DNA of 64,000 bases, taken from assembly GCF_900108305.1 (NCBI RefSeq), contig NZ_FNUX01000012.1, positions 1-64,000 of the forward strand, given 5' to 3'. This stretch comes from Nitrosomonas ureae. GTDB taxonomy: Bacteria; Pseudomonadota; Gammaproteobacteria; Burkholderiales; Nitrosomonadaceae. Made by a program: the position numbers and the translations under genes. A model generated the notes under the pieces. The model worked only from the letters and a program-made list of their open reading frames with translations. It did no database searches and had not been told where the DNA came from. This document shows, one piece after another, positions 3,847 through 36,802 of this stretch. Positions within the stretch are counted from its first letter, which is position 1. Each line of letters starts with the position of its first letter.

Positions 3847-3879
3847 GTAATGTCTTGTGCAAGTTGTTGGAGTACTCGC

Positions 3880-5267: not shown

Positions 5268-5579
5268 ATGGCGCTTCGAACCATACCTATCCGCCAATCG
5301 GGAAACCGTCCCAACTTGTTCATGGGTGGCGACCGGGAACTGGTTATGTTCTCTATCCTGATTGCAGCCACATCCATCTTTGTAGCGATGGAAATCAAGG
5401 CTACGCTCTTCGGCATAGCACTGTGGATTTCTGCACTGTTTGCACTGCGATTGATGGCTAAAAATGATCCACAACTACGTCATGTGTATTTACGTCAGAT
5501 TCGATACGAAACATATTATCCGGCGCGAAGCACTCCTTTTTATGACAATACGCTCACACAGGAAAAACAGCATCTATGA
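5268..5579 (+). CDS. trbD: TrbD, VirB3-type inner-membrane protein
   Basis: The 103-residue product starts MALRTIPIRQSGNRPNLFMGG, the characteristic opening of TrbD/VirB3 proteins. One long or two close membrane segments follow (ELVMFSILIAATSIFV and FGIALWISALFALRLM). The C-terminus is polar. Its stop overlaps the trbE start (ATGA), so the two are translationally coupled, as expected for a protein that works with the VirB4 ATPase. Confidence 0.9.
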   Translation: MALRTIPIRQSGNRPNLFMGGDRELVMFSILIAATSIFVAMEIKATLFGIALWISALFALRLMAKNDPQLRHVYLRQIRYETYYPARSTPFYDNTLTQEKQHL

Positions 5580-9799: not shown

Positions 9800-10261
9800 A
9801 TGAGATCCAATATTTTAATTATCATTTTGTTATTGCTCCTGGGCGGTTGTGCTTCGCAACCGTATGGTAATTTTATTCAAAATCCGTCAATCGTAACCAG
9901 CAAAGTCATGGCTGATGACGTGACAATCCAAATAGTGCGGCTGTATCCGGCGGCCAATACGCAGTTTAATTTGCGCCACGTGGTTAATGATCCGTTTGGT
10001 CATGCCTTGATCGAAAACCTGCGTCTTGAAGGGTTCGCGGTTCAGGAAGCGATTCAGCAATCAATTCAGCAACAAATCTTTGCTGTGCCGAATCAACCTG
10101 ATACTGAACCGCAAAAAGGCTTGATCTTGAGTTACATCATTGACCAATCAGGTGATTTGTATCATGTCAAACTCATGATTGACGATATGCGCTTATCGCG
10201 TGCATTCGCGGTACAGGCCGACAGTATCCATCCTGCCGGTCTTTGGGTCAGAAAAGAATAA
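9800..10261 (+). CDS. trbH: TrbH, lipoprotein of the mating apparatus
   Basis: A 153-residue lipoprotein: the N-terminus is a signal with lipobox LLGGC, and the mature part starts CASQPYGNF. RP4 TrbH occupies the same position between trbG and trbI and probably plays the VirB7-like role of anchoring the core. The ATG at 9800 has GAGGGG upstream and sits just after the trbG stop; an in-frame TTG lies two codons earlier. Confidence 0.85.
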   Translation: MRSNILIIILLLLLGGCASQPYGNFIQNPSIVTSKVMADDVTIQIVRLYPAANTQFNLRHVVNDPFGHALIENLRLEGFAVQEAIQQSIQQQIFAVPNQPDTEPQKGLILSYIIDQSGDLYHVKLMIDDMRLSRAFAVQADSIHPAGLWVRKE

Positions 10262-10274
10262 GGGGATAAGGGTG

Positions 10275-15653: not shown

Positions 15654-17048
15654 ATGTTAAATAATAATCTTATTCTCTCTTTAGGAGGGGTGTTTTTAAT
15701 AGCTGTTACAGTTTCGGCACAATCTTCAACGGACTTTTCTTTCCCCGCAGATTCGGACATTCGTCAAATCATTTTGGATCGGATCGAAAGCCGTAAACAA
15801 TCCATGGGTATCGTTGTGGGATTGGTGAAAGCAGGTGAGCGCCGTATCGTCGCTAATGGCCATTTAGGTTCAGACGATCTCCGTCACGTAAATGTAGATA
15901 CAGTTTTTGAAATCGGTTCTATAACCAAAGTTTTTACAGGTTTTCTGCTTGCCGATATGATGCAACGCTCCGAGGTCAAGCTTGATGATCCCATTGCAAA
16001 ATATCTTCCTGAAGAAGTCGTAGTCCCAAAACGGAATGGCAAGGAAATCACATTGGTTGAACTGGCAACCCATACCTCAGGCTTGCCACGGATGCCCGAT
16101 AATTTTTTACCAGCAGATCCAGCCAATCCATATCCTGATTATTCCGTTAAACAGCTCTACCAATTCCTTTCAAACTATCAATTATCACGCGATATAGGCA
16201 CGGAATGGGAATACTCCAATCTCGGTTATGGACTTTTGGGCCACGGTCTTGAACGTCGCAATGGCACTGATTATGAAACCTTGATTCAAGACCGCATTCT
16301 CGAGCCTTTAGGCATGAGGAATACTGCTATTATTCTTTCTCCCAAAATGAAAGCAAGACTTGCCATCGGTCATAATTTGGCATTAGAAGCTGTTACAGAT
16401 CGGGATTCAAAAGCACTTGCTGGTGCGGGGGCCTTACGTTCAACGGCGAGCGATTTGCTGACCTTCTTAGAGATGTCGCTTGGCATAAAGGAATCACCAC
16501 TTGCTTCTGTTTTTGCTGCAACGCTTGAAGTACGGAGGCCCATTGGGGGAAATAACGAAATGGGACTCGGCTGGCTTGTTATGAAAGATGGCGAAGATGA
16601 AATAATTTGGCACACTGGTCTTACCGCTGGGTATTCCTCTTTTATTGGTTTCCTGATGAAAAAGAAAGTGGGGGTCGTTGTACTTTCAAACACATCCGCT
16701 AGCGTCGAGGACATTGGGAAACACCTGCTCAATCCTAAAATACCTCTTTCTCCTCCACCTAAGCTGAACATTGCAGTCACCATAGATACCAATTTATACG
16801 ATGCCTATGTCGGGCGATATCGTTATAAACCGAACTATATTTTGTCCGTAACACGGGAAGGCGATCGTCTCTTTGTGCAGGCCAACGCTTATGAAAAGGT
16901 CGAAATTTTTCCGAAAGGAGAACGAGAGTTCTTTTCTAAAGCAGTGGATACTCAAATCATTTTTAATTTGAACGACAAAGGCCGTGCAGTAAGCTTTACT
17001 CATTATCAAAATGGGGGGGGCGCAGAATTGCATCGAATTGGGGAATAG
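15654..17048 (+). CDS. Exported serine hydrolase of the class C beta-lactamase fold
   Basis: This 464-residue protein has a signal peptide (residues 1-22) and the beta-lactamase/penicillin-binding fold motifs: S89-I-T-K92 (nucleophile and Lys), Y187-S-N189 and H320-T-G322 in place of KTG. HTG is usual for esterase, D-aminopeptidase and PBP4*-type members rather than for AmpC beta-lactamases. A C-terminal lipocalin-like domain (from about residue 360, YVGRYRYKPN) agrees with that. It is probably periplasmic or anchored. Substrate unknown; it should not be called a beta-lactamase without a test. It stands alone among degraded sequence. Confidence 0.85.
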   Translation: MLNNNLILSLGGVFLIAVTVSAQSSTDFSFPADSDIRQIILDRIESRKQSMGIVVGLVKAGERRIVANGHLGSDDLRHVNVDTVFEIGSITKVFTGFLLADMMQRSEVKLDDPIAKYLPEEVVVPKRNGKEITLVELATHTSGLPRMPDNFLPADPANPYPDYSVKQLYQFLSNYQLSRDIGTEWEYSNLGYGLLGHGLERRNGTDYETLIQDRILEPLGMRNTAIILSPKMKARLAIGHNLALEAVTDRDSKALAGAGALRSTASDLLTFLEMSLGIKESPLASVFAATLEVRRPIGGNNEMGLGWLVMKDGEDEIIWHTGLTAGYSSFIGFLMKKKVGVVVLSNTSASVEDIGKHLLNPKIPLSPPPKLNIAVTIDTNLYDAYVGRYRYKPNYILSVTREGDRLFVQANAYEKVEIFPKGEREFFSKAVDTQIIFNLNDKGRAVSFTHYQNGGGAELHRIGE

Positions 17049-20013: not shown

Positions 20014-20784
20014 TCAGAATGTATATGATTCACCATCATGTGGTACTAATACTCGTTGCGTCATTTCCTTTACTCTAAGAAATTCACCCAGCTCTTTTCT
20101 GGTTAAAGTGGCATGATTCACTGCTTCCATGTGGCTTGCAATAATGGTTGCATTAGGAGCGGCTTTGTAGACCTCATAAATATCTTCCTTGCCCATGATA
20201 ATGGATTCATTACCAATAACTTGTGCATCACAACTATTTAATACAACCACATCAGGATGATATTTTTTCAAGCTTTGTTCGACTTCCGTACACCAAACCG
20301 TATCTCCAGCGATATAAAATGTTTTTTCATTTGGATGTTTGAAAATGATACCGCTCACTTCGCCCAGCAATTCTTTCATGTCTTCAACTACCTTCGGCCT
20401 GCCGTGTTGTCCTAGGGTTTTAATCAGCGTAATACCCTCATAATCGTTGACTTCATTTAGTATTTGAACATTGTTAAATCCGGCGGATTTGACGGCTTTT
20501 GCATCTTTTTCATGTTGGGTAAAAATCAACATGTCTTTAGGAATTGCCTTTTTAGCCGCATCATCCCAATGATCTGGATGATCATGCGTTAAGATAACCG
20601 CATCCACATCAATTATCTCATCGATCGGCATAGGTAATTCCGACGTTGGATTACGAATGTGCTCATTGATCGTCCCGCCAAATCCAGGTAAGGCTCCTTT
20701 TTCCGCTAGCCAAGGATCAATTAATATTTTCTTACCACCATAATTAATTTTAAGTGTGGCATTTCTGATTTGAGTAAATTGCAT
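20014..20784 (-). CDS. MBL-fold metallohydrolase (UlaG-like)
   Basis: A 256-residue protein of the metallo-beta-lactamase fold. The zinc motif T66-H-D-H-P-D-H72 is complete, and the third His (LGQHGRP), the bridging Asp (IAGDTVW) and the last His (ASHMEAVNH) are all present. The family includes lactonases and phosphodiesterases of the UlaG type; the substrate is open. No signal peptide. A strong GAGGAG lies upstream of the ATG. It is probably regulated by, or transcribed with, the GlxA-type gene behind it. Confidence 0.88.
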   Translation of the reverse strand: MQFTQIRNATLKINYGGKKILIDPWLAEKGALPGFGGTINEHIRNPTSELPMPIDEIIDVDAVILTHDHPDHWDDAAKKAIPKDMLIFTQHEKDAKAVKSAGFNNVQILNEVNDYEGITLIKTLGQHGRPKVVEDMKELLGEVSGIIFKHPNEKTFYIAGDTVWCTEVEQSLKKYHPDVVVLNSCDAQVIGNESIIMGKEDIYEVYKAAPNATIIASHMEAVNHATLTRKELGEFLRVKEMTQRVLVPHDGESYTF

Positions 20785-21833: not shown

Positions 21834-22673
21834 ATGTTTGAACCTTATTTAAGCCGATGGAATCTCCTTCCCGATGGCGACCCCATTGTCGCGCGCGGCA
21901 GCTATTTATTGCCCGTGCGTATGGATGGGCACATAAATGGCAATCCTGCCATGCTGAAAATTGCCCTGGATGCCGAAGAAAAATTCGGCGGTTTAGTCAT
22001 GCAATGGTGGAATGGCGATGGCGCAGCGCGAGTGTATGCTTACGCAGGTGATGCACTACTGATGGAGCGGGCACAAGGAAAAAATTCTCTCATGGAAATG
22101 GCGTGCCAAGGTCAGGATGATGAGGCGAGCTGCATCGCTTGCAATGTCATTGCCAAATTACACCAACCCCGATCTATGCCGCCGGCAGAGCTTATCCCGT
22201 TAAATATTTGGTTTGAAGCGTTAGAATCGGCTGCACAACGTGAAGGTGGTTTGTTTCTCCAAAGTCTAGCTGCCGCCCGCGAGCTGTTGGCGTCACCGCG
22301 CGACATTGTAGTGCTGCATGGCGACATACATCATGAAAACGTATTAGATTTTGGTCCGCGCGGTTGGCTTGCCATCGACCCGAAGCGCTTAATCGGTGAA
22401 CGCGGCTATGATTATGCGAATCTTCTGTGCAATCCTGAATTGCCAACGGTCACTGATCCCATCAGATTTATTCGCCAATCTCACGTGATTACGCAAGCTG
22501 CTAATTTGGAACGACGGCGCTTATTGCAGTGGACATTGGCGTATGCTGGCTTATCGGCTTCATGGTTTTTGGAAGATGGTGATCGCCAAAACGCAAATTC
22601 GGATTTATCCATTGCTAAACTCGCTCTGCAAGCCCTGTTATGGGAAGTAAATAATCATGACGACTTCCATTGA
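21834..22673 (+). CDS. APH(6)-type aminoglycoside (streptomycin) phosphotransferase
   Basis: The 279-residue kinase belongs to the APH(6)/hydroxyurea phosphotransferase family. Catalytic loop HGDIHHENVL at residues 162-171, metal-binding IDPKRLIGE at 181-189, and the N-terminal layout AMLKIAL followed by WWNGDGAARVYAY and LLMERA match StrB/APH(6) proteins. These enzymes phosphorylate streptomycin at the 6-hydroxyl. It is clearly different from StrB, so substrate and resistance level are uncertain. The stop overlaps the start of a truncated acetyltransferase, giving a two-gene drug-modification operon. Confidence 0.8.
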   Translation: MFEPYLSRWNLLPDGDPIVARGSYLLPVRMDGHINGNPAMLKIALDAEEKFGGLVMQWWNGDGAARVYAYAGDALLMERAQGKNSLMEMACQGQDDEASCIACNVIAKLHQPRSMPPAELIPLNIWFEALESAAQREGGLFLQSLAAARELLASPRDIVVLHGDIHHENVLDFGPRGWLAIDPKRLIGERGYDYANLLCNPELPTVTDPIRFIRQSHVITQAANLERRRLLQWTLAYAGLSASWFLEDGDRQNANSDLSIAKLALQALLWEVNNHDDFH

Positions 22674-22830
22674 CGAACTGCGCATTGAACCTATCACATA
22701 CGATAACGCGACCGATGCTAAGGTAATTGATGGAACATTTATCATTAATACTCGCTTGTTGCTTTCGACTTCATCTGATGGCTTCCGCTACGAGATAATC
22801 TCCATAAGGTTGCTGTGTTTGGCATATTGA
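22657..22830 (+). pseudogene. Truncated GNAT acetyltransferase (streptothricin acetyltransferase-like)
   Basis: The frame overlaps the kinase gene by 17 bases and reads MTTSIDELRIEPITYDNATD, then VIDGTFIINTRLLL and DGFRYEI, and then runs into IS1595 sequence and stops at 22828. The opening resembles SatA-type GNATs (IExLTxxN, DGxFxVxxxLxL). The acetyl-CoA-binding core is missing. The break falls near 22797, where the IS1595 frame takes over. Confidence 0.6.
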
Positions 22831-23168
22831 AACGCGGTGGTAAGGTCTATACGAAGGTTGTTGGAGATACCAAGACAGAAACGTTGATGCCGCCCATTAC
22901 TAGAAAAATAGCACCTGACAGCATAGTTTATACAGACTGTTACCGCAGTTATAATGCTCTCGACGTGAATCATTTTTACCATGAACGGATCAATCATTCC
23001 ACGCTATTTGCTCAAGGTAAGAATCACATCAACGGCATTGAAAACTTTTGGAATCAGGCAAAATGCGTCTTAAGAAAATACAATGGTATTCCTAAAGGAT
23101 CATTTCCTCTGTTTCTCAAAGAATGTGAATTTAGATTTAATTATGGAACACCTAAACAGCAACTATAA
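22803..23168 (+). pseudogene. C-terminal fragment of an IS1595-family transposase
   Basis: The frame reads HKVAVFGILKRGGKVYTKVV, then VYTDCYRSYNAL and GIENFWNQAKCVLRKYNG, ending FRFNYGTPKQQL. These are the central and C-terminal parts of the DDE domain of ISXO2-like (IS1595) transposases, including the second Asp (YTDCYRSY) and the Glu/Asn region (GIENFW). The N-terminal zinc-binding half and the first Asp are absent, so it cannot work. It interrupts the acetyltransferase gene. Confidence 0.8.
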
Positions 23169-23685: not shown

Positions 23686-24651
23686 GTGGCATCAGAATCT
23701 CTCAAAATTAGATCCCTTTCTGGCAGTTTATTGAGATACCCGGGTGGAAAAGGCCGACATGCTAAAATACTCGTGTCTATTTTTAAGCTGAACAAACTGC
23801 AACCGAAAACATTTATTGAACCATTCTGTGGTGGAGCTTCAATTTCTCTAAACCTACTGGAAGCTGATGCAGTTGAAACAATTAGTCTAAATGACTTAGA
23901 TCCAATGATCGCATCTCTATGGAAAGCTGTTTTTTCTACCTCCGATAGCAAATGGCTTTGCGAGCAAGTAATGACCGCTCCTTTGACACTTGAATACTGG
24001 GATTATCAAAAATCAAAAACTCCTCAAACACTTAGAGAACAGGCATTCCAATGCCTCTATCTCAACAGAACCTCTTTTTCTGGTTTATTACATAAGCATG
24101 CAGGTCCTATTGGAGGAAGAAAACAGGATCGCTGGACAATTGGATGTAGATTCAATCGAGAAAAATTGGCTGCACGGATAGAAAAATTGTCTAGTTATGC
24201 AGATAGGGTAAATTTTATTGAAAATAAACCTTGGAGGAATTTTATCTGTCAAAGCATTACTTCCTCATGTTTTCTTTATTTTGATCCCCCCTACTACAAC
24301 AAGGCGGATAGACTTTATAGATATGTATTTGATGAAAATGAACACGCTGCATTATATGAATATTTACATAATTTTTGCGATATTCCTTGGGTTTTATCGT
24401 ATGATGATTCAAAAATTATTCGTGATATGTATCTGTCTGGAAAACAAGTTAACGGCTGCATAATTGATAGTACATACTCAACCCATCCAATTGGTGGGAA
24501 TTCATTTATTGGAAGAGAGCTACTATTAACTAACCTGAAAACTTTGCCAAAGTTTGATACGAACTATTATCACAGTGGAATTTCAATAAGAGATTTTGAT
24601 GCTAAGTCATCAAAATTTATGAATCAAACAAATAATTTCATTCCAGTGTAA
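23686..24651 (+). CDS. D12-class (Dam-like) DNA adenine N6-methyltransferase
   Basis: A 321-residue methyltransferase of the D12 family. The SAM-binding N-terminal motif LLRYPGGKGRHAK is at residues 15-27, FIEPFCGGASISL at 43-55, the catalytic DPPYY at 200-204, and the final strand ENEHAALYEYLHN follows. D12 enzymes methylate adenine, as in GATC-type sites. No restriction enzyme gene lies beside it. Start is GTG at 23686; no better in-frame start is visible. It is the first gene of a tight AT-rich operon with the HIT, membrane and PEP/MazG genes. Confidence 0.88.
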   Translation: MASESLKIRSLSGSLLRYPGGKGRHAKILVSIFKLNKLQPKTFIEPFCGGASISLNLLEADAVETISLNDLDPMIASLWKAVFSTSDSKWLCEQVMTAPLTLEYWDYQKSKTPQTLREQAFQCLYLNRTSFSGLLHKHAGPIGGRKQDRWTIGCRFNREKLAARIEKLSSYADRVNFIENKPWRNFICQSITSSCFLYFDPPYYNKADRLYRYVFDENEHAALYEYLHNFCDIPWVLSYDDSKIIRDMYLSGKQVNGCIIDSTYSTHPIGGNSFIGRELLLTNLKTLPKFDTNYYHSGISIRDFDAKSSKFMNQTNNFIPV

Positions 24652-24694
24652 ATTATTAAGCTTAACTGACCATTTTTTATTAGTGAGTTCAAAA

Positions 24695-25327
24695 ATGAAA
24701 AGTACAACAACTGATTTATGCAGGTTGTGCTCAATCGTAAAAAGCAGACATATAAACGGAATTGTCGATAAACCAATTCATGAAACGCCCAATTACATGG
24801 TAATTCCTTCAATTGGGGCTTTTATAGATGGATGGGTAATGATTGTTCCAAGAAAACATATATATGACATGTCAGAACTGTACGAAGATGATGAATTTGT
24901 AAGATTGGCACTAAAAATTTATAAATATATTGAAGAAAAATTTGGTCGGCCAGTAATGTTTGAGCATGGTGCATCATATAGCGGCTCTCCAACAGGATGC
25001 GGCGTTGATCATGCTCATTTTCATTTCGTCCCATTTGTTGAATCTCTATTAGAAGATTTAAAAGAGACTAGGTTACCGTGGCAAAAATGTATCGCAAGTG
25101 AAATTACCAATAAATCATGTGGCCGAGACTACCTTTTTTATAGTGAAACACCACCAACTCTTAGCAAAATTAATGGGTATTTGCACATAGTTGATAGACC
25201 AGTTTCTCAATTCTTTAGAAAAATATTGGCAAGGAAAACAGGAAATGAGCTTATTAGCGACTACAAGAATTTTCCCCTCCTTGAAAAAACCCAACGAACA
25301 GCACTAGAGCTGCAAGGCCTAAGCTAG
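24695..25327 (+). CDS. HIT-family nucleotide hydrolase/transferase-like protein
   Basis: The 210-residue protein shows the histidine triad H106-A-H-F-H110 within GCGVDHAHFHFVPF, an N-terminal CRLC pair at residues 9-12, and WVMIVPRKHI in the core strand. HIT proteins hydrolyse or transfer nucleotidyl groups on AMP-linked substrates. The part after residue 120 is an extension of about 90 residues that I do not recognise. The ATG at 24695 is preferred; an in-frame GTG lies 12 bases upstream. It sits 43 bases after the methylase and 17 before the membrane gene. Confidence 0.82.
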   Translation: MKSTTTDLCRLCSIVKSRHINGIVDKPIHETPNYMVIPSIGAFIDGWVMIVPRKHIYDMSELYEDDEFVRLALKIYKYIEEKFGRPVMFEHGASYSGSPTGCGVDHAHFHFVPFVESLLEDLKETRLPWQKCIASEITNKSCGRDYLFYSETPPTLSKINGYLHIVDRPVSQFFRKILARKTGNELISDYKNFPLLEKTQRTALELQGLS

Positions 25328-25344
25328 TTTCTGGAATAAATCCG

Positions 25345-25920
25345 ATGAGTAACAATAGCCATGAAGCACATGATCCCAATGCGAGCACGGCTGAGCCTAC
25401 TGATGGAAGGCAACAATATGAATGGCAAAGCAAATATCCTAAAGATGCGATGCAAATTATAAGGTTCGAGTCTATCTATCTATTTATTCTGCTTCTTATG
25501 TCACTTCTCGGAATACTTTTAACGTGGAATAGATATCTCGAAAACTTTCTTTTTAATCCAGAAATATTAGATCCAAAAATTTTTCGTATTTACAGCTACT
25601 ATTGTTTTGCGGGACTATTAGGGGGAACAACCTTTTCGATAAAGTACATGTACCGGGTAGTTGCGCGTGGATATTGGCACCTGGACAGACAAATTTGGAG
25701 ATTGTTATCACCTTTTATGTCTATAAGCATATCTTTTGCTGTCGGTACATTAATTAGCGCAAGTTATATTGGGTCAGATACCATTAAATTTAGTCATTCA
25801 GCAGCATCGGCTATAGGCATTGGATTCTTAGTTGGTTATTTTGCTGACCAAGCAATCGGAAAAATGTATGAAATTGCAATGGTTCTTTTTGGTCCTACAA
25901 GCTTACATCATAAAAAATAA
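25345..25920 (+). CDS. Four-helix membrane protein of unknown function
   Basis: The 191-residue protein starts with a 40-residue polar segment. Four hydrophobic segments follow, at about 43-62 (YLFILLLMSLLGILLTW), 85-102, 120-142 and 152-172 (GIGFLVGYFADQAIGKM). Between helices 2 and 3 is a charged loop, RVVARGYWHLDRQIWRLLSP. I recognise no named family. Small membrane proteins next to nucleotide-processing genes are often effectors in defence operons, but nothing here proves that. It lies 17 bases after the HIT gene and 14 before the next start. Confidence 0.75.
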   Translation: MSNNSHEAHDPNASTAEPTDGRQQYEWQSKYPKDAMQIIRFESIYLFILLLMSLLGILLTWNRYLENFLFNPEILDPKIFRIYSYYCFAGLLGGTTFSIKYMYRVVARGYWHLDRQIWRLLSPFMSISISFAVGTLISASYIGSDTIKFSHSAASAIGIGFLVGYFADQAIGKMYEIAMVLFGPTSLHHKK

Positions 25921-25934
25921 AGTACATAAAAGTG

Positions 25935-28535
25935 ATGTCAAAAAATATTATTAATGGATTAACTCCTATCAATAATATTCTATTGGTACATAAAGATGAA
26001 ATTATTGAATTATTACCCGATCAAGTTTCAACTGAATTAGTAGGTGAAAAAGCTTTCGGTCTTGCTTGTATTCCATCTTTATGGACACTCCCATTTTTTG
26101 TAGTCTCTGGAGAGCTTGTAGCATCTGCAAGCAAGATGGATCACTCACAACTTCATTTGCTAATTGCAAAATGGTTTCTCGAACTAACTTTTGCACTTAA
26201 AAAGACTGGATTAGATAATGAAACGCATCTAACTTTGAGATCTTCCGGGATAAACGAATCCATCCAGAATCGAGGAAAATTCCATACAAAAATAGCAAGA
26301 TCCAATAAACTAGCTGATGACCTAATAAGTTGGCTAGTACAGATCATCTCAGATGAAACGCTAAGAAACGAACAAATAAATCTTATTATTCAGAAATACT
26401 CGTTGGTTTCTGCCAAAGGTCATCTATCAAATGAACGAAGATGCTCCAAAGAATCAAGAGATTGGTTAGGTGAAATAGAAAATGAAAAAGAGCCATTTCA
26501 AATTAATTTGCGCAATTGGCGAAGTAAAGAAAATAATTTTGAGTCTGCGCTAAAACCCCTAGATTGTAATATCAAAATATCTCTACAAAATGTTTTAAAG
26601 AAAGCAGCATCATGGGGAACTGCACATCAATGTCGATTGCATTTTGAATGGGTATGGGATGGCAAAATCATATATTTGGTTCAGGCTGATGTTGAAAGTT
26701 TATTAGGAAATTTTGATCCTGTAAAACACTGTAAAAAAAATAATCAATCACATTCTTCCTTCGTGCCCAAAATACTTTCTAAAATATCGAAAGAACATGG
26801 TAGGAAGTATCATAAGATTAACAATGTTTTTACTTATATGGAACTTGATCTTCCGATAACCAGTTTATATGTTCTAGATAATCAGGGAGTAATAAAAGAA
26901 ATTTCTAATGGAAATTTCCAAGAAGAGTTGTTACACGATATTGGTGAATTGGTAAGATCCTCATTGGTTATAAGAACCGATATTGTTAGTGATGAACTAT
27001 CAAATAAACAGCTTCTTCCTCGCACACATGAAGTCAGAAATATTGAAGATGCAAAAGAATGGTTAATAAATAAATCTAAAATTCTTTTGAGTCAAGTTTC
27101 AGGGCCTATAGAATTAGCTTTCATTTTTCATAACTTTATTCCTGCTGAAGCATCAGCTTTTGCTTTCTCTGCACCAGGGGAAAGGAAAGTCCAAATTGAA
27201 GCTTTATGGGGTATTCCCGAAGGATTGTATTACAACTCACATGATAATTATATTGTTGACACACTATATTCAGATATCGATAAGGCTAGTACATCAATCG
27301 ACAATTACGTTCTCACAGAGAAGAAGAACTTTAAACGTAATTGTGTTGCCCCAAATGAAAATGGTACATGGATAAATCAAGCAATTTCCAAACCGTATGA
27401 TTGGAAAAGCAGCATTAGATATAAAAAATGGATCCAAAAAATAGCTTGTGATTCTAGACTGATATCGACTCAAGAAGATAAGCCACTAAGCATCATGTGG
27501 TTTGTTGGTGTCCCAAAGGAATTTTCTACAGCTTCGGTTTTACCTTGGTATCATGAAGAATATGACTTAAAAAAAATACAAAGAAGTCATGGTCATAGAA
27601 ATAAAACGCATTTTGATAAAATATTTGAAATTAAAAATTTTGAAGATATTGCAAAACTAGAAGCACTTGTAGATTCGAATGACAAGAGTATTAGAAGAGT
27701 GCTTGTAAAACCTCAAGATGAAATATTGTTACGTGATAGAAATGCATTACAAAAAATTGGTGGGCTAGTTAAAAAAATTGATGCTGTTATTTTTCTAGAA
27801 GGAGCTACTCTTTCTCATGCTTATTATCAACTTCTTCAAACGGGCGCAAATGTAGAAGCAGGTACTACATTTAAAGGTGATAATGAGCAGCAGGTATTTA
27901 ATAAGTTAGTTAGAGACAAGATCCCTCAAAAAATTGAATCGGGTGGAGAACTTGTAAAAGCTGAACGTTTAATAGGTGATGACCTATTAAGAGCTTTATG
28001 TGAAAAACTGGTAGAAGAATCTCTTGAAGTTTTAGATGCGAAAGATCATGACTCAATAATCGAAGAATTATCAGATGTCCAAGAAGTTATAGATGGGATA
28101 TTAAATAGTTTAAAAGCAGACATGTCCGAAGTCACAAAAGCAAAGGAAAGAAAACTAAATAAAGTTGGTGGATTTAAGGATGGTGTTGTTCTCGTAAAAA
28201 CCACAAATCCATTGCCTTCTACAAAATACAATTTAGATTCTTCTCAAAATTCACTGCCTCTAAACGAATTTCAGAGTGTCTCTAATTATGCACCTTATCG
28301 TCGTTCCGAAACTAGAATAAATAAATGGACTGATAAAAGAGAACATGCGGCAACTAAGGAAATTTTATTAAAAGTTACAGCACCAATTGTACTTGACTCA
28401 TGGAAGAGCGAAACACCGCAATTTTTTATTGGAGATAAAACCATAAGTGCGGAAATCACCACAATTAGAAAAAAAGGGGATCTAGAAATATCACTTTCAG
28501 TTTTTGCACAGCAAACACAACTAAAGCTTTTCTAA
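25935..28535 (+). CDS. PEP-synthase-like ATP-grasp/phosphohistidine protein fused to a MazG-like pyrophosphohydrolase
   Basis: This 866-residue protein is a multidomain fusion. Residues 30-250 hold pieces of the PEP/pyruvate-binding ATP-grasp domain: GEKAFGL (37-43), LRSSGINES (101-109) and FEWVWDGKIIYLVQ (237-250). A second ATP-grasp-like block at about 340-445 has FIPAEASAFAFSAPGER and EALWGIPEGL. A phosphohistidine swivel domain at about 585-645 has LEGATLSHAYYQLLQTG, with H628 at the phospho-carrier position. Residues 655-755 are a MazG-like pyrophosphohydrolase: KLVRDKIPQ, E694-E-x-x-E698, E711-x-x-D714 and KVGGFKDGV. The last 110 residues are unassigned. It is the terminal and largest gene of the AT-rich operon. 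Substrate unknown; ATP-dependent phosphotransfer plus NTP hydrolysis is an inference from the folds. Confidence 0.75.
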   Translation: MSKNIINGLTPINNILLVHKDEIIELLPDQVSTELVGEKAFGLACIPSLWTLPFFVVSGELVASASKMDHSQLHLLIAKWFLELTFALKKTGLDNETHLTLRSSGINESIQNRGKFHTKIARSNKLADDLISWLVQIISDETLRNEQINLIIQKYSLVSAKGHLSNERRCSKESRDWLGEIENEKEPFQINLRNWRSKENNFESALKPLDCNIKISLQNVLKKAASWGTAHQCRLHFEWVWDGKIIYLVQADVESLLGNFDPVKHCKKNNQSHSSFVPKILSKISKEHGRKYHKINNVFTYMELDLPITSLYVLDNQGVIKEISNGNFQEELLHDIGELVRSSLVIRTDIVSDELSNKQLLPRTHEVRNIEDAKEWLINKSKILLSQVSGPIELAFIFHNFIPAEASAFAFSAPGERKVQIEALWGIPEGLYYNSHDNYIVDTLYSDIDKASTSIDNYVLTEKKNFKRNCVAPNENGTWINQAISKPYDWKSSIRYKKWIQKIACDSRLISTQEDKPLSIMWFVGVPKEFSTASVLPWYHEEYDLKKIQRSHGHRNKTHFDKIFEIKNFEDIAKLEALVDSNDKSIRRVLVKPQDEILLRDRNALQKIGGLVKKIDAVIFLEGATLSHAYYQLLQTGANVEAGTTFKGDNEQQVFNKLVRDKIPQKIESGGELVKAERLIGDDLLRALCEKLVEESLEVLDAKDHDSIIEELSDVQEVIDGILNSLKADMSEVTKAKERKLNKVGGFKDGVVLVKTTNPLPSTKYNLDSSQNSLPLNEFQSVSNYAPYRRSETRINKWTDKREHAATKEILLKVTAPIVLDSWKSETPQFFIGDKTISAEITTIRKKGDLEISLSVFAQQTQLKLF

Positions 28536-28572: not shown

Positions 28573-29694
28573 CTACCTATTGCGTCCTTTGCCCCTTAAC
28601 TTGGTTAATCCGCCATCTTCCTTCACAAAGGATCTGGGCTTTCTAAGAATGGCGCTTATTTCACCGGGCATTGACGCAAATAATCCTTCTTCCCGCAATG
28701 AACGATAATCAGAGCCCTCTACGGTTAGCACATCTTTTAAGATGCCAGCTTCACAGGCTTTGGATAATACCGGGTGTCTGTAATCATTGGTGTTCGTGAT
28801 GGCAAATACCGTATTGACGCCAGAATTGCGTGCAAAATTTTGTAGTCGTGCCAGAAGCAGATTTTGAGGACGCTCCAATACAGACAGGGGTAACTCACTT
28901 AACGACAATACAAAACCTGTTGCACTAAGCCCTATCAAGTTAAAAAACTGATCTCGCTTTTTTAAAGCATGACCTATCTTTGCCAGATCCTCCGGTGAGG
29001 CTATTTTCTCCAAAAGCAGCTCATGACTTTTATAATGATTATTCTGATAACCTCCTGCCTGATCACCCATCCAATCCACAAAATCGACATGACCGTCTTT
29101 ATCAATGACACTGTATTGACTGGTATTGATTACCACATGGCCTTTGAAACTCGGAACAGTTGATGCCAGTATCTCTGTGAGTCTGACATCCTGACTCGAT
29201 GGCGTAGCACTACCCGATGGATGATTATGCAATAACCAGTAACCATCTGCTTTAACATGTCGTCTAGTCTTTTCTACTAAAACACCCAGATCATGTTTGG
29301 CATGCCCAATCTTCTCCAAATAGACTGCACCCGGTAATCTGGAACTCACAGCCGTATGATGAATGATGCGATTCATACGGGTATAGAAGATTCTCAGTGT
29401 CTCATAACGCGGATCGCGTAATATTTGCGTCATTATTGCCAGATCATGGCCTGACTTGATGCGCTGATTCAGGAAAGTGGTTCCTCCTTTTTCTTTGAAG
29501 TCTTTCGGGAAATCACAACCCAATAAGGTGCCACCTGCCCATCGAGCATGAGCTTCAAGCAGTTCTGTATAGGCACCTCTTCCTTCTTTCTTTTGCTTTT
29601 CTGTAGTACCGGGACGAGTCTCAATTTTTTCATAAAGATCACCTTCATCAGAATCGAATGGGTTTCCTGGAATCTTCAGCATATTATCGCGCAT
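28573..29694 (-). CDS. RadC-like JAB-domain protein of conjugative elements
   Basis: The 373-residue protein has a JAB/RadC metalloprotease-like motif, LLHNHPSGSATPSSQDVRLTE, with both His and the Asp. The N-terminal 90 residues (GRGAYTELLEAHARWAGG) and C-terminal 150 residues lie outside RadC. Such proteins are common next to traC on plasmids and ICEs; their role in transfer or DNA repair is not established. A strong AAGGAG precedes the ATG. Located just downstream of traC on the same strand. A fragment of a paralogue lies at 14327-14437. Confidence 0.8.
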   Translation of the reverse strand: MRDNMLKIPGNPFDSDEGDLYEKIETRPGTTEKQKKEGRGAYTELLEAHARWAGGTLLGCDFPKDFKEKGGTTFLNQRIKSGHDLAIMTQILRDPRYETLRIFYTRMNRIIHHTAVSSRLPGAVYLEKIGHAKHDLGVLVEKTRRHVKADGYWLLHNHPSGSATPSSQDVRLTEILASTVPSFKGHVVINTSQYSVIDKDGHVDFVDWMGDQAGGYQNNHYKSHELLLEKIASPEDLAKIGHALKKRDQFFNLIGLSATGFVLSLSELPLSVLERPQNLLLARLQNFARNSGVNTVFAITNTNDYRHPVLSKACEAGILKDVLTVEGSDYRSLREEGLFASMPGEISAILRKPRSFVKEDGGLTKLRGKGRNR

Positions 29695-29714: not shown

Positions 29715-32543
29715 TTACCTGGTCAATGCACGTTTTTGCTTGATTTCCTGCTGCTTAGGTTCAATAGGGACTTGTAACTTCAATAAGCTGTCCTGCTTAG
29801 CCTGCTGAGATATTTTTTCAACAACCGATCCAACTTGTCGTTTGACTGCCTCAATACCCAACGCGCTTTTATTGGCGAGATCATTAAAATCATTTAATTT
29901 CCTTGAGTTCCGTTCACCCGGCGCAAAAATCGGAAATACCACAGCCCCATTTACCAATGTCGCTGCTTCCAACGCTTTTTCCTTGCCGGGGTTTTTGCCG
30001 AGAGTGAATTCCAGGTGATGATCATCGTCGCCTGCGATAACGATTGGCTTGTGCGGGTATTTATGACGTAAATCCTGCGCGACTTTGGGCAAATTGCCCG
30101 AATCAAATGCTGCGACAACAGGATAACCCAGCGCCTGGGATAGCGTGTCTGCGGTGGCATACCCTTCAGCAATCACGATGACAGGTGCTGTATTGATGGC
30201 TGCTTCCAATCCCTTACCGTTATTTCCCACGACATGAAAGGTATTCTCCTTTTTACTGCCCGCTGCAAAAAGCTTTGCACCACTCGCCTGTATCGTTTGC
30301 ACACTCCAGATTTGTCCATGAATATCTTGTGCGGTCAGCAACAAATCACCGGCGGTAAATACCAAACTGTCAGGGTATACTTCGCGCAGCGCTTTGACTT
30401 CCTGCCAGTTTTGACCAATTTTGATGATTGAATCATTGGGTAAATCATCCGCATTCTGCGGCACGATTCTCAGATTGCCTGGCCGGACACGCTTGTCTTT
30501 CAGATAAGGATGCTCGGAATCGGCAGCAGGTGCGATAGTCAGCAATTGTTGAATTGCATCAGCAACCTTGATGTGCAGTGCCTGTTGCTCGGCTTTTCTA
30601 TTTTGCTGCTTGATAGCAGCTTGGGCGATCAATTCTGCTTTTTGCTCATCTGTGAGCGAATACCCCTTGGCCTTCCAACGCGTCTCTATACCGGTTCGAT
30701 TGTTCTTGAAATATCCGGCAGGATGACCATCCAGATGCGCCACATAAAAACCTGATTTCTCGCCCGACTTATCACTCTCAACTTTAATTCTGTGTTTGCT
30801 ACCATCCATCACCGGATGATTGCCATCAACCAAACAACCTTGAGCGCGCAGCAAGTCAGCAAATTCCACGTGAGGATCGATAGCCGGTTCTTGCTGGCTG
30901 GAAACATTCTCCGGTAGCCAGCGTTGCAGTGTTTGAATATCTGCTTCTGACCCTACATACCAGGCACGGGCCTTTTTGTCCCAGCGAGCCCCAGCGGCTT
31001 TTGCTAAATCCTTATCACGATAAGGAACAATCAAATATTGACGAGCATTGTCATCGTCTTGCTCGGTTTTGGCTCCTGATATCGATACTTCAGTACTAAT
31101 TAGATCATTTCGAGTGCGGTTTTCATGGATGTTGACAAGCTTGACGGCTTTTTTATGTTCATTCTTTTCGGCAGCGACATCAATGAGTGCAAGCAAATTG
31201 GTTAAATCTTGCGCTTCCTGTTTGGATTCACAGTCTTTCACCCATTGGAAAGTCTGATCATCACGCTGCATAGTCACGCCCCAGAATTGCGGTTCACAAT
31301 TCAGCATTTGAGCGGATACCACAGATTTGTTGCCATTTTCATCGGTTTGTATCGCATTACCCTGAATCTGTATCTGTCCATTCCAGTCAGCCGGAATGCT
31401 AAAACCCAGTTTGTCTGAAGATACTTCTTCAAACTCCAGATTATCAATGCCGCCGCCCCTCGTAAACTTGAGTGCATCGGCTACCAGAATGATGGCATCC
31501 TGATCTTTTTTTGGCATATCCTGTGTTAGATCATTAAACCGTTTGATATTGTGGGATGCGATGGTGGCCAGATCAGGTGAGAGATTCAGTAAATGAGCTG
31601 TGGTGTTTTGCTTGATTTGATCCATCTTGATTGCCTCCTGCATATCAATTTCCTGTTGTTGTGACAATGCCAGTACATATTCCTGGATTTTTTCAGCATC
31701 AGCAGCAGCACGAAATATCTCTGTCGGATCTTCCTGTAGCGCTTTGATCCATGATCTCACATAAGCCACATGCTGCCCCGGATCATGACCAATACCCAAT
31801 TCACCGCTGAGTAGCATGCTGGCAATTTCAGCGCGTAGCTCTTCTTTGGCATAACCCTCGCTACCGAATGGATGCGATAGATCACGACTTAGGCGCAACT
31901 CATGACCTGTCCAGTGGCCCAGTTCATGCATTGCTGTTGCGTAATAGCGATCGGGTGTCGGAAACTGGTGCTTATGGGGTAAGTGGATACTGTCTGTTGA
32001 TGGCCGGTAAAATGCGCGATCTGCCTCGCCATGATGGATTACGGCATTGGATGCTTGTAATATGTGCTCAGCCCGCTCCAGTGGATCCCAGTCAGGGGCT
32101 TTAATATTGAGTTCAGGCAGATTATCAATCTGCTGCGCATTAAATACGGCGGCATAAAACACCCTAGGACGCTCTAGTCTCACCTGTTCTTTAATAGGAT
32201 TGCCTTCATTATTGAGTACAGGATTATTGTTGTCATCGGTTTTGATGTGCTCCTCAGTAAATTTCCAGTATTGCACGAGCGTGCTTTTTTCACCTTTGCG
32301 CACCTGTGCGCCAAGATTTTCTGCTTGCTTGTACGTCAACCAGCGCGGATCCGTATGCGCACGGCTCATCAAGTTCAGGCTATTAATGCCCCGGTAGCGC
32401 TTACCTGTAGTTGGATTGACAGGTAATACGGCCAGCAAATCACCGGGTTTCCACGGCTTCTGCCAAGGTGCGACTCCCTTTTTGAGTTGCTCAATCAGAT
32501 TCTCAGCGACTTGTTCATGAAAAGCCTTCTTAGCCTCTTTCAT
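29715..32543 (-). CDS. traC: TraC-like primase with ArdC-type antirestriction and metallopeptidase N-terminal domains
   Basis: This 942-residue multidomain protein begins with an ArdC N-terminal ssDNA-binding domain ([13 protein letters not shown] to about 130). A zincin domain follows with HELGH at 206-210. A DUF5710-like domain lies near 525-575 ([20 protein letters not shown]). The C-terminal third is a toprim-type primase ([17 protein letters not shown], then [11 protein letters not shown]). RP4 TraC has the same ArdC-like and toprim parts and is carried into the recipient to prime complementary-strand synthesis. The ATG at 32543 follows GGAGG; upstream codons add 14 residues without a site. 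It overlaps the small gene before it by 14 bases. Confidence 0.88.
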
Positions 32544-32751
32544 CTTCAACCTCCGTCGCATGATCAATCGTGCTATCCAGTGCATCCTGTTCAGTTAAGG
32601 CGTCTTCCTTGAATGCGCCCAGCCTTTCTGCCTCCAAGGGATCAAATTCAGCTTGGAAGCCCGGTATTTCTGCATCAAGTAGCTTTTCCTGTATCACCTG
32701 CTCTTGAATGTCAGGATTGTTTGTTTCAGCATCAATCGGCGGTCTATTCAT
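32530..32751 (-). CDS. Small acidic protein at the traD position
   Basis: A 73-residue, strongly acidic protein ([18 protein letters not shown] in the centre) between traF and traC. RP4 has the small gene traD here. Similarity to TraD cannot be judged by eye, so no symbol is given. It overlaps traC by 14 bases and is probably translated in the same operon. Confidence 0.6.
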
Positions 32752-33338: not shown

Positions 33339-35174
33339 TCACAGTCCGGTTAATTTATCGCTGAAACTCGGGGGGGTAACTTTTGCCCGTGCCGCAAAGG
33401 TTTCATCCTGGAAATACAAAGGTTGCGTGCCATAAATGGCCGGGAACCCGGCAACATAAATAATCATGTCTCCTGGCTTGGTGATCTTGCCGTCAGCATC
33501 TTTCATGGGGCCTGGCAGTCGCATACATTCATCCGGGGTTAATAACGCGCGCTGCGTCTCCTGTAGGGTACGGGTAACATGCCCATGCATCATTGATGAG
33601 CGGCGGCCGCTGGTGGTAATCTGCTCTTTGATAACCGTGGTTTGCCCGGTCAGTTTGGATAAGTGTTCCGCTGTTTCAATTCGGTTGGGTGCAAACGCGG
33701 TCTGAATGTGACAGTTGGAAGTAATCGCTTCATCATGCCCGTAGCCGGTCTCGCGACTTTTGAGTTGATTTAAGTCCTGGCAGATCAGATAGGCTTTCAT
33801 GCCGTAGCCTGCGATAAACGCGAGTGATTCCTGAAATATTTCAAGTTTTCCTAAGCTTGGGAATTCGTCCAGCATCAATAGCAACTTGTGTTTGTAATGC
33901 GCGGCTGGTTGACCGTTTTTAAACGTGATTCTATCGGCCAGCTTTCTGATGATCATATTGATCAGAATGCGGATTAAAGGACGCAACCGCGATTTGTCAT
34001 TGGGGTGTGACACAATATACAAGCTGACGGAATACTCATGGTGCATGAGGTCGCGGATTGCAAAATCGGAATCACTGATGTTGTTGGCGACGATCGGATC
34101 GCGATATAAAGATAGATAGGATTTTGCAGTTGATAGCACGGAACCTGCTTCTTCTTCAGGACGATCCAACATATCGCGCGCACTGGCTGCAATCACTGGA
34201 TGACTCTTGCCATCCAGATAGTCCTGCATGGCCATTTCCATCCACAGTTCCCTGATATCGCGATCAGGATCAGACAGCATGGAATCTACTGTGGATAATG
34301 TGGCAGGAGCTCCTTCTCGCTGTGATTTGTATAAAACATGTAAAATGACACCTACCAGCAATGCCTGGCTGGTTTTCTGCCAATGCGTTTGTAATCCCTT
34401 GCCATCCGGATCGACGATTAAGGTGGTCAGGTTTTGCACATCGGCCACTTCCATGCCGCTGCCAATCGGGATTTCATCTAACGGATTCCAATGCGTGCTA
34501 CTGGTTGATGCCGGATCAAAACGCAGCACCTTGTTTTTGGCGTGAAGCTTTCTCCAACCGGCAGTTAATGCCCATAACTCACCTTTAAGATCAGTAATGA
34601 CTGCACTCTGAGTCCAGGAAAGCAGGGTCGGTATAACCAGACTGACACCTTTGCCAGAGCGAGTCGGGGCATAACACAACACATGTTCCGGGCCGCTGTG
34701 TTTCAGATAGCGGGTTTTGCCGGAATTATCCCGCCAGCCGCCGACATAAACCGCATCACTGTGATTACTTTTGCCGGTTGCCAGCAGTCCCGCGCTCTCA
34801 ATATCTTGTTTCTCGGCCCATCTGGCCGATCCATGTAGTCCCTGATTGGTTCGGGATGAATTGGCCAGAACCATTTTAATGACCAGTACCAGAATCAAAC
34901 CAATACTGGAAAATAAAATACCAAAACCTGCCGCCAGATCGAAGATGCCCGAATACTCGCCATACCATTTATTCGCCCACACCAGAATTGCCCAGGGTTC
35001 ATAAATATGAAAAAGGTGTGTACCTAATTGCGGTTGATAATTGAATTGTTGCGCAAAATACTGAGTGGCGACTTGGAATCCGCCAACAAGGCAGACAATG
35101 GATAATGAGCGAACAATAATTTTGTCTTTTGTGATATTTCTGCTGTCTTTAGAACTCAGATTGATGTTATTCAT
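33339..35174 (-). CDS. traG: TraG, VirD4-type coupling protein
   Basis: The 611-residue protein has two or three N-terminal membrane segments (residues 20-40, 55-70, 80-105). Walker A (CYAPTRSGKGVSLVIP) lies near residues 167-182, Walker B is LLLMLDEFPSLGKLEIF, and a TraG/VirD4 C-terminal NTPase domain follows (SNCHIQTAFAPNRIETAEHL). It connects the relaxosome to the secretion channel. Its start overlaps the traI stop by one base. Confidence 0.95.
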   Translation of the reverse strand: MNNINLSSKDSRNITKDKIIVRSLSIVCLVGGFQVATQYFAQQFNYQPQLGTHLFHIYEPWAILVWANKWYGEYSGIFDLAAGFGILFSSIGLILVLVIKMVLANSSRTNQGLHGSARWAEKQDIESAGLLATGKSNHSDAVYVGGWRDNSGKTRYLKHSGPEHVLCYAPTRSGKGVSLVIPTLLSWTQSAVITDLKGELWALTAGWRKLHAKNKVLRFDPASTSSTHWNPLDEIPIGSGMEVADVQNLTTLIVDPDGKGLQTHWQKTSQALLVGVILHVLYKSQREGAPATLSTVDSMLSDPDRDIRELWMEMAMQDYLDGKSHPVIAASARDMLDRPEEEAGSVLSTAKSYLSLYRDPIVANNISDSDFAIRDLMHHEYSVSLYIVSHPNDKSRLRPLIRILINMIIRKLADRITFKNGQPAAHYKHKLLLMLDEFPSLGKLEIFQESLAFIAGYGMKAYLICQDLNQLKSRETGYGHDEAITSNCHIQTAFAPNRIETAEHLSKLTGQTTVIKEQITTSGRRSSMMHGHVTRTLQETQRALLTPDECMRLPGPMKDADGKITKPGDMIIYVAGFPAIYGTQPLYFQDETFAARAKVTPPSFSDKLTGL

Positions 35175-36802
35175 CAGAGGCTCCTTCGGGTGGTGACGGA
35201 GGTGGTGGGTCGTTTTTGACCAACCGATTGCTCTCTACTTAAAGCATGCTGTTTCGTTAACTGCTGCCGGTATTGTTCAAGTTGCTTTTCATCAAATATC
35301 ACGCGCATTTTATTTTGCGCTGCAACCTGTGCTATCTGAAGGCGAAACTGTTCTGTCCCATTGATCGCCAGGTGGCTGCCGTACTTCTTCATGGCCACTT
35401 GCAAAATATCTCTCAAGGCTTTCTGCGATGTATCCGGCAGAACGATGAGCCGTTTGCCGTCATCGCGGATAGTGGTTGATCCTGCTTTATAAGTGACTGT
35501 GCCGATTTTGGTGATCGATTCCACCAAGACATCCTTGAAGTAGCTATTAGCGATGGAACCATCATTGCTTTGCTTAGCTGATACCTGGTTGCCCTTAAAT
35601 TGACCGGATCTTCTGGATCGCAATACGGCCAATGCTTCAGCATTGCCATTTTTGGCCTCAAATGTGAGCCAATCCAGCCACCCCATTCTGGAATGATGGG
35701 CCTTAGAGTGCTGATAGGATTTTTGATAATCACTTTTAATGACTTCGATAGTCGTTTTGAATTGCTGATGTGCGGTTGCATACAGCGCTTTTTTGGCCAA
35801 TCTCCCAGCTTTGATGCTTTTAATGATGTTTCGCTTGAGTTTGGCTTCCCGTTTGGCGCGGTCAATGAGTTGATCTCTGCTTTGGCGCAACATAACCCAC
35901 TGGCTTGAACGATGTCTGACGCTATTCGCTTGCTCTTGCTGGTATCTTGAATAGAGCTTTGAAGTATCCATTTGATTTTGTAGCGGTCTTGGCTGGTATT
36001 GTTTGGTGTCTGGGCTTGAAGATTGAACAGAATGCTCACCAGATACAAAAGCGCCCAGTCTTTGGGTCAAATTGCCTTTGGAGAGAGAACGGTCAACCGA
36101 ACTGGCTTTAACAGCCACACCATTGTTGGCAACCAATACAAACCCGTTGCCACGCTCCTTGATTTCAAGGCCATGTGTTTTAAGCACCTGATGCAAATCC
36201 TGCCAGCTGCACGACTGCTTCATTTCATCCAAGCACTTACGCTTGATCCAGCTAAGCAAGCTCTCCACACCGGTTCTGGTTTCAATTTCCTGCGCCACTC
36301 TGGATGCTTTATCACTCACAGTTTCATGATTAATCTTTACTAAACCATATTCCTGTTCGATTAGCTCGCAAAGATTGGCTATTTTTTTGTAGTCATAGTA
36401 GGGGCTATGGATTGTGAGGGCTCTGGGGTGAATCTTATTGAGTGCAATATGCACATGTAGGTTATTGGTATCATCATGCACAACGCTGATGCGTTGATGG
36501 CCACCAAAACCCAGAGCCTCGCAAAATCGCTCTTCAATAGCATTCAGGTCAGAAAGGGATAAACGTTCCCCTTCAGGGAAGCTCAGTACCAAATGACAGG
36601 TTTTGTCTGATTTAGCGCGAGTGTTCATTTCCTGTGTGTTTTGTATCTCTATCAATGCAGCCATCTGATCGTCTGAATAACAGTTTGATACCTTGATCTG
36701 ACTGATACGTTCACTCTTGCCTTGAGGATCAGTCAGATACTGTATCAGCGCAGAGTAATTGCTTTTGCGCACTGATTTGATGGGTATGATTTTAGCGATC
36801 AT
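35174..36802 (-). CDS. traI: TraI, IncP-type relaxase
   Basis: The 542-residue MobP relaxase keeps the RP4 TraI active-site layout at the same positions: Tyr22 (LIQYLTDP), Ser74 (LVLSFPEGE), and His116/His118 (HVHIALNKIHP). It nicks oriT on one strand and stays bound to the 5' end. The C-terminal half has an LPD7-type domain (RDDGKRLIVLPDTSQKALRD, then MRVIFDEKQL). It is shorter than RP4 TraI, about 730 residues. The KorB-like palindrome lies five bases upstream of the ATG. Confidence 0.94.
   Translation of the reverse strand: MIAKIIPIKSVRKSNYSALIQYLTDPQGKSERISQIKVSNCYSDDQMAALIEIQNTQEMNTRAKSDKTCHLVLSFPEGERLSLSDLNAIEERFCEALGFGGHQRISVVHDDTNNLHVHIALNKIHPRALTIHSPYYDYKKIANLCELIEQEYGLVKINHETVSDKASRVAQEIETRTGVESLLSWIKRKCLDEMKQSCSWQDLHQVLKTHGLEIKERGNGFVLVANNGVAVKASSVDRSLSKGNLTQRLGAFVSGEHSVQSSSPDTKQYQPRPLQNQMDTSKLYSRYQQEQANSVRHRSSQWVMLRQSRDQLIDRAKREAKLKRNIIKSIKAGRLAKKALYATAHQQFKTTIEVIKSDYQKSYQHSKAHHSRMGWLDWLTFEAKNGNAEALAVLRSRRSGQFKGNQVSAKQSNDGSIANSYFKDVLVESITKIGTVTYKAGSTTIRDDGKRLIVLPDTSQKALRDILQVAMKKYGSHLAINGTEQFRLQIAQVAAQNKMRVIFDEKQLEQYRQQLTKQHALSREQSVGQKRPTTSVTTRRSL

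Follow-up and report, generated by a model that had tools for sequence, protein, structure and literature searches.

The DNA considered here is a 64,000-nucleotide stretch of Nitrosomonas ureae (contig NZ_FNUX01000012.1; the whole stretch is referred to as the window), in which four co-directed open reading frames (ORFs) on the forward strand, at positions 23686–28535, lie within a conjugative element. These four genes are interpreted as a mobile anti-phage module, with an effector core formed by a membrane protein (hereafter TM) and a HIT protein, a nucleotide-processing dikinase/MazG enzyme, and a self-marking methylase; the probability of this reading is put at roughly 0.6, the defence role being inferred from genomic context and the order of the steps being hypothetical. 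The module is a candidate for a multi-gene, methylase-linked, membrane-effector defence system that is rare and previously undescribed and has an unusual central enzyme. The four genes are as follows:

23686–24651, + strand: D12-class adenine-N6 DNA methyltransferase, 321 amino acids (aa) (Pfam PF02086, PADLOC PD-Lambda-5_B, motifs)
24695–25327, + strand: HIT-superfamily hydrolase-like protein, 210 aa from ATG (earliest start GTG at 24683, 214 aa)
25345–25920, + strand: four-helix membrane protein (TM), 191 aa (AlphaFold2, hydropathy, phrog_22917)
25935–28535, + strand: protein with two tandem ATP-grasp modules, swivel, MazG and C-terminal beta domain (gene 4), 866 aa (earliest start GTG at 25932, 867 aa)

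The ORF list of the window bears out the arrangement given in an earlier note on this sequence, with intergenic gaps of 43, 17 and 14 bp when ATG starts are taken for genes 2 and 4, or 31, 17 and 11 bp when the first GTG is taken. The AT-richness claimed there is also evident, with a GC content of 34.5% across 23686–28535 compared with 45.3% in the whole window and 41.8% and 45.2% in the 10-kb flanks; a value this low or lower is reached by just 2 of 592 sliding windows of equal size.

The set recurs far from Nitrosomonas. Contigs from the genomes of 84,980 species were scanned with the patterns of gene 4 alone, the partner genes being outside the query, and 19 loci were obtained; five of them (L004, L005, L006, L011, and L020) were set aside as 99–100% copies of the window protein, leaving 14 further loci; Burkholderia, Achromobacter, Candidimonas, Nitrospirota, and Sulfurimonas are among the organisms named in the records. 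Twelve of the 14 are complete, the others being L021, whose contig begins inside the large gene, and the variant L015. In all 12, which are not fully independent since L010/L022 and L012/L014 are close pairs, HIT, TM, and gene 4 are adjacent, in the same order and on one strand, with spacings ranging from overlap to 28 bp, and a D12 methylase lies within 3.3 kb. This recurrence indicates that the four-gene set is more than a chance association. In addition, the pairwise distances of the four proteins correlate across 13 loci including the window (r 0.62–0.90), and 0 of 2000 permutations reach the value for each of the six pairs. Co-occurrence, which the earlier note had proposed to check, is thus upheld; it had also held that the idea of a system fails if homologues are rarely adjacent and their neighbours metabolic, and adjacency proved to be complete (12/12), while the neighbours are mixed, with defence or mobile genes at several loci and housekeeping-looking genes at others.

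The module is nevertheless sparse: of the 398 genomes in the phylum sample, two have full-length gene 4, that of the window included (three more match in the MazG region only), as do 1 of 369 genomes of the class, the window genome itself (two more with MazG only), and 2 of 399 genomes of the order, the second being that of L016; in the family, 6 of 125 genomes match at E up to 1e-30, three of the six being cut by contig ends. TM was found in 3 of 398 genomes of the phylum sample, two of which also have gene 4, and the family has three full and two weak partial matches among 125 (partial: G808, 7.7e-6; G813, 2.9e-4). Divergent relatives are L110, in a genome (G274) that also belongs to the phylum of the window, and L002, on a Caulobacter plasmid, where a 618-aa annotated methyltransferase has no Pfam match. 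Among plasmids, 25 records match the large protein, 24 of them in the MazG region only, and L002 is the one real module. Relatives of the large protein on viral contigs were rejected as the module, as the best 80 of 120 all match only its MazG part (query ~642–779); in phage records, neither the large protein nor any of three TM queries and one HIT query had a protein match, though PHROG profiles match. Two contigs labelled as Bacteroidetes metagenome-assembled genomes (L004 and L005) carry a protein ~99% identical to that of the Nitrosomonas module, L004 with 96% DNA identity over 13 kb of the window, which points to mis-binning or very recent transfer.

Within the set, TM and HIT form a core of their own. 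The window HIT protein scores just below the Pfam cut-off (E = 7e-4, 20.6 bits against 21.5), and its assignment in the earlier note is sustained by the match of the family profile to HIT proteins in PDB (7.2e-6) and by the H-phi-H-phi-H-phi-phi triad, whose His 110/112/114 are kept in 14/14. TM, at 191 aa, is likewise a small membrane protein as described; the AlphaFold2 model has four long helices (pLDDT 78; a hydropathy profile was also computed), phrog_22917 matches at 8.3e-11, and no Pfam family does. A HIT gene adjoins TM at every examined locus bearing this TM family. In L189, the third TM genome of the phylum sample, TM and HIT overlap by 8 bp, and neither gene 4 nor a methylase is present in 19 kb. 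An earlier TM alignment against viral contigs had given 38 pattern matches, none confirmed; the divergent L189 TM then found four contigs, with an overlapping TM–HIT pair in 4/4 (L191 and L192 are nearly identical), while plasmids gave no match for the L189 TM or for the L015 fusion described below. In L194, the pair lies between the replication protein A and portal genes, as assigned from first residues and the annotations of matching phages. It has been reported, in the accessible part of Rousset et al. (2022, PMC9122126), that a defence hotspot of P2-like prophages lies between gpA and gpQ, and by its gene order the L194 pair appears to occupy this hotspot. The pair also occurs in 7 of 5426 Escherichia coli genomes; two of these regions were viewed, and both are P2-like prophages in which the pair sits on the opposite strand, flanked by the baseplate V and virion morphogenesis genes, a position not found described as a hotspot in the accessible part of PMC9122126. 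Because the bare pair exists in L189, viral contigs, and E. coli P2-like prophages, TM–HIT is a separable two-gene unit to which gene 4 and the methylase are additions. Directly before the L189 pair, at L189:2517–8960, lies an operon of four genes, two of which, judged by eye, encode an SMC-like ATPase of 1229 aa and a toprim-like protein; Wadjet was not confirmed for it, as three of its proteins had no sequence match in PDB, JetD_C was not found in the genome, and SbcC_Walker_B did not match at that place.

The large enzyme has two tandem ATP-grasp modules of the PPDK/rifampin-phosphotransferase (RPH) type, a swivel-like His domain, MazG, and a C-terminal beta domain, as judged from the AlphaFold2 model, ATP-grasp fold matches to RPH and PPDK, and motifs of the family alignment. 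In the fold search it is of the PPDK_N-type ATP-grasp fold, with HpeI and RPH closest; in Pfam, PRA-PH alone matches, weakly, with E = 0.21 for the window protein and 3e-4 for that of L002. The swivel motif GGxxxH keeps its His and first G in 16/16 and its second G in 13/16 (A in the window), and His629 is a putative phospho-acceptor. Some PEPS/PPDK structure alignments reach model residues 643–646, at a root-mean-square deviation of 6–10. A T/S before the GG of this motif is named for dikinases in the accessible part of PMC12167813, and this residue is not conserved in the gene 4 family. No phosphoenolpyruvate (PEP)/pyruvate-binding TIM barrel or drug-binding domain matched gene 4 in Pfam up to E = 1; after the swivel come MazG and an end of ~110 aa. 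Of the PEP/MazG fusion proposed earlier, MazG therefore stands (motif EExxE..ExxD kept in 16/16), whereas the PEP-utilising enzyme gives way to tandem ATP-grasp modules and a swivel with no PEP/pyruvate barrel. In comparison with the RPH/PPDK/HpeHI dikinases, as far as the accessible text of PMC12167813 describes them, the ATP-grasp fold and the swivel His in GGxxxH are common, and gene 4 differs in its two ATP-grasp modules, in having MazG for the PEP/pyruvate or drug-binding domain, and in its genomic setting.

These fold matches, together with an APH(6)-family gene upstream, are what a small-molecule (drug or aromatic) phosphotransferase cassette like RPH or HpeHI, unrelated to phages, would display; such a role is scarcely credible for a protein with MazG behind the swivel, no RPH/HpeH-type substrate-binding domain, and a recurrent methylase partner, and no homologue of the APH gene turned up in the sequence fetched around the 14 other loci (cluster table). 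A metabolic role near this gene was dropped, since of all loci compared L004 and L006 alone have a homologue, and these are copies of the Nitrosomonas element. A different alternative makes the large enzyme itself the effector, MazG destroying nucleoside and deoxynucleoside triphosphates on infection with help from ATP-grasp or HIT while the membrane protein only anchors or senses. The motif EExxE..ExxD is indeed common to the MazG/all-alpha NTP pyrophosphohydrolases, and MazG is named among the predicted, unvalidated defence domains of DefensePredictor in the accessible part of PMC13092281. In gene 4, however, MazG is fused behind a dikinase-like scaffold, and mere hydrolysis would need no tandem ATP-grasp; moreover, TM–HIT pairs persist without the large enzyme, so that an executor independent of MazG is likely and depletion as the main action is rather unlikely.

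A variant of the module in Desulfovibrio (L015) has, before gene 4, a 763-aa protein (L015:6885–9173) with canonical PPDK_N (4.7e-15) and a C-terminal HIT domain (0.0026), that is, a PPDK_N–swivel-like–HIT fusion that accompanies the tandem ATP-grasp/MazG protein in the manner of a paralogue. Because this fusion is collinear with gene 4 through the swivel motif (hhalign E 0.0012, probability only 19%), a single scaffold seems to take either HIT or MazG as its tail. The fusion and gene 4 are separated by another kind of membrane protein, one with two helices; the label SLATT is not claimed for it, as Pfam SLATT does not match. A type I restriction–modification (RM) system and a NucC-like nuclease lie alongside.

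The first gene is a D12 methylase, as the earlier note had it, matching Pfam PF02086 above cut-off (E = 3.1e-21) and being the single D12 match in the window genome. Its YPG.K and DPP residues are kept in 14/14, and the position after DPP is Y in 13 and F in one. A D12 methylase is found near the module in 13 of the 14 further loci (the exception is L015); it is upstream on the same strand in L008, L013, L017, L018, and L019, upstream and divergent in L012, L014, and, at 3.2 kb, L016, and downstream and convergent in L007, L009, L010, L021, and L022. Attachment to the module is loosest for the methylase, whose side and strand vary and which is missing in some versions. No restriction endonuclease model matches the three partner genes in the Pfam, PADLOC, and PHROG scans, which an endonuclease of an unlisted family would escape. 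The coupling of a methylase with a putative membrane effector resembles selfish RM logic, and with carriage on an integrative and conjugative element (ICE) and integrases adjoining L010 and L017 it could describe an addiction module that secures retention of the mobile element by its host, with anti-phage action absent or secondary; this appears improbable, since prophages carry the TM–HIT core as cargo with no methylase beside it and the window's insertion spot alternates with named defence systems, although some of these (RM) are potentially addictive themselves. It is highly improbable that the methylase and the nucleotide enzymes build a modified base or serve nucleotide metabolism: all enzymes of the module handle nucleotides or DNA, and in the accessible part of PMC7824862 MazG-type enzymes come up in connection with the use of modified bases by jumbo phages, but the Pfam, PADLOC, and PHROG scans reveal no base-modifying enzyme besides the D12 methylase among the four genes, TM is central and tied to HIT, and the methylase is absent in several versions.

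PADLOC 2.0.0 gives no match for genes 2–4, in agreement with the earlier statement that no named system has this set. Its model PD-Lambda-5_B (PDLC04018), for the D12-type methylase of PD-Lambda-5 (Vassallo et al. 2022, PMC9519451, seen in part), matches the window methylase at 2.9e-70; the A protein of that system is not among the four genes (no A-model match), and HIT, TM, and the ATP-grasp/MazG protein have no PD-Lambda-5 model. In L016, PD-Lambda-5_A (3.5e-84) lies between the methylase and HIT, and no homologue of it is present in the other compared loci (cluster table). The closest analogue found is the pair of a HAD-like hydrolase and a TM protein in the P4-satellite section of Rousset et al. 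(PMC9122126), where, in the accessible text, the pair inhibits T7 and its TM protein is suggested to act by abortive infection; both pairs join a small hydrolase to a TM protein on P2/P4-type elements, but the hydrolase is HAD there and HIT here, and T7 inhibition was seen there whereas the present pair is known from genes alone. No CD-NTase or TIR model of CBASS/Thoeris-type signalling matches any of the four genes in PADLOC. BREX, DISARM, and Ssp likewise combine a DNA mark with several further genes, and the three partners have no PADLOC match to their models. Among the open-access PMC matches listed, titles and abstract openings do not describe the gene set, subscription papers, bioRxiv preprints, and supplementary tables lying outside this search, and no phage test of TM–HIT was found.

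That the module is cargo of a conjugative element, as stated earlier, is evident from the other genes of the window:

3850–4845: VirB11-type ATPase
5576–8113: VirB4/TrbE-type ATPase
10179–11687: TrbI
22815–23168, + strand: truncated ISXO2/IS1595-type transposase (PF12762, 4e-18, model positions 41–153), upstream of the module and outside it
28573–29694, − strand: RadC/JAB-like gene of the element (PF04002, 7e-7), marking the cargo spot for sibling comparison
29715–32585: ArdC-type anti-restriction protein
33339–35174: coupling protein
35174–36802: relaxase

Further cargo is an APH(6)-family kinase gene at 21834–22673 (4.8e-80), followed by the truncated transposase; a serine beta-lactamase/esterase-family protein with DUF3471 (15654–17048) and a metallo-beta-lactamase-fold protein (20014–20784) also lie inside the element.

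The module lies on the 3′ side of the RadC-like gene, which has a homologue in 30 of 125 Nitrosomonadaceae genomes. Of 24 RadC-like copies without the module at at least 88% identity, 20 spots were fetched, some on contigs that end within 9 kb; G770:C41, G773:C32, and partial copies in G780 (at 1708431) and G786:C38 were left out. At each spot, the ORF scanned was the largest one found on the cargo side in 9 kb, a rule set after the ORF lists had been viewed and before the PADLOC scans. Named defence systems were found at 8/20 spots, namely IetS (L154, L163, and L168), SspC (L158 and L166), type I restriction endonuclease HsdR (L160 and L164), and type III restriction endonuclease Res (L167). 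The count becomes 9/20 with L155, where the largest ORF is a helicase with generic matches and the second largest is the IetS gene of L163 at 93.5% (BLAST). A DEDDh exonuclease also matching the PADLOC candidate model PDC-S48 is present at L156, L162, and L170, weak matches occur at L157 and L159 (L157 has several ORFs, only the largest being scanned), and six spots (L152, L153, L161, L165, L169, and L171) have no PADLOC match for the largest ORF. The spot next to the RadC-like gene is a hotspot for cargo in this ICE family of Nitrosomonas, with IetS, SspC, type I and III RM, DnaQ/DinB-like, and other genes alternating there; a second copy in the window genome (L170, contig 22) has exonuclease/DinB-like cargo instead of the module. 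Of ten random 9-kb stretches from four Nitrosomonas chromosomes, one had a named RM enzyme (type IIG), matches that were partial or generic came from four, and five were blank. Enrichment of defence genes at the window's insertion spot is suggestive, not proof. At other loci, the module is near HsdM and a DUF1016 nuclease-family gene (L007) or adjoins a phage-type integrase (L010 and L017); about a dozen flank proteins picked by eye were scanned, from which no frequency is derivable. The defence-island setting that the earlier note asked about is thus seen at the ICE cargo spot, the P2 hotspot, and the loci with RM neighbours, and is not seen where neighbours look like housekeeping genes. As for mobile surroundings, two 513-aa ORFs of L016 (5824–7365 and 13113–14654), with identical first 40 residues and opposite orientation, flank the module region and are perhaps part of a composite mobile element, and L019 has small toxin–antitoxin-like gene pairs on both sides of the module, judged from first residues only.

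Several observations weigh against an anti-phage module of this kind. The hotspot comparison is statistically weak (8/20 vs 1/10, Fisher one-sided p 0.10; 9/20, p 0.06), the sibling spots are mutually related rather than independent, and one partial control match is mad3 (1.9e-31), which, if counted, brings the controls to 2/10. Neighbours look like housekeeping genes at L008, L013, L014, and L018 (first residues only), a YhdP-like gene adjoins L110, and for L010 and L022 the single flank protein scanned has no PADLOC match. No D12 methylase was seen in L110 (17 kb), L189, the viral-contig pairs, or L015. The TM fold search gave no usable match (best E 1.3), families outside the search listing being possible. 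Where Q-x-R is usual in ATP-grasp enzymes, module 1 of gene 4 has D/N and module 2 lacks E/Q/R, so that catalysis may be altered. The kinship of the L015 fusion to gene 4 is a weak profile match, at the 19% given above.

The phage-defence hypothesis of the earlier note is favoured as regards a recurrent mobile module in a defence-leaning context, with the changes that TM–HIT is a separable core and the methylase is loosely attached. In the proposed mechanism, the D12 methylase would mark host DNA so that self is told from entering phage DNA, by analogy with PD-Lambda-5 and RM logic. The large enzyme would pass a phosphate of ATP via the swivel His, in the manner of RPH/HpeHI, onto or off a nucleotide that MazG handles, and would thereby make or remove a nucleotide signal once a phage disturbs the pool. 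HIT would hydrolyse a nucleotide of the phosphoramidate or nucleotide-linked kind by which the membrane protein is kept either inactive or active, and the membrane protein would then damage or arrest the infected cell. TM and HIT would be the minimal executing unit, as in prophages, with the methylase and large enzyme as an added layer of recognition and signalling. The weakest steps are the trigger of the system and killing by TM.

ATP-grasp/phosphohistidine dikinases are known from carbon metabolism and drug inactivation. More tentatively, the module may represent a new class of immunity, in which such a dikinase makes or removes a nucleotide signal read by HIT and a four-helix membrane effector, the methylase supplies the self-mark, and TM–HIT is a portable core mounted by phages and conjugative elements, alone or with sensor layers. 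If the reading is right, this would be an anti-phage system with phosphohistidine dikinase–MazG chemistry, for which the searched open-access literature gave no precedent in immunity. The two-gene TM–HIT unit of E. coli P2-like prophages is directly testable in standard strains, and the Nitrosomonas conjugative-element spot where defence systems swap is a place to seek more of them.

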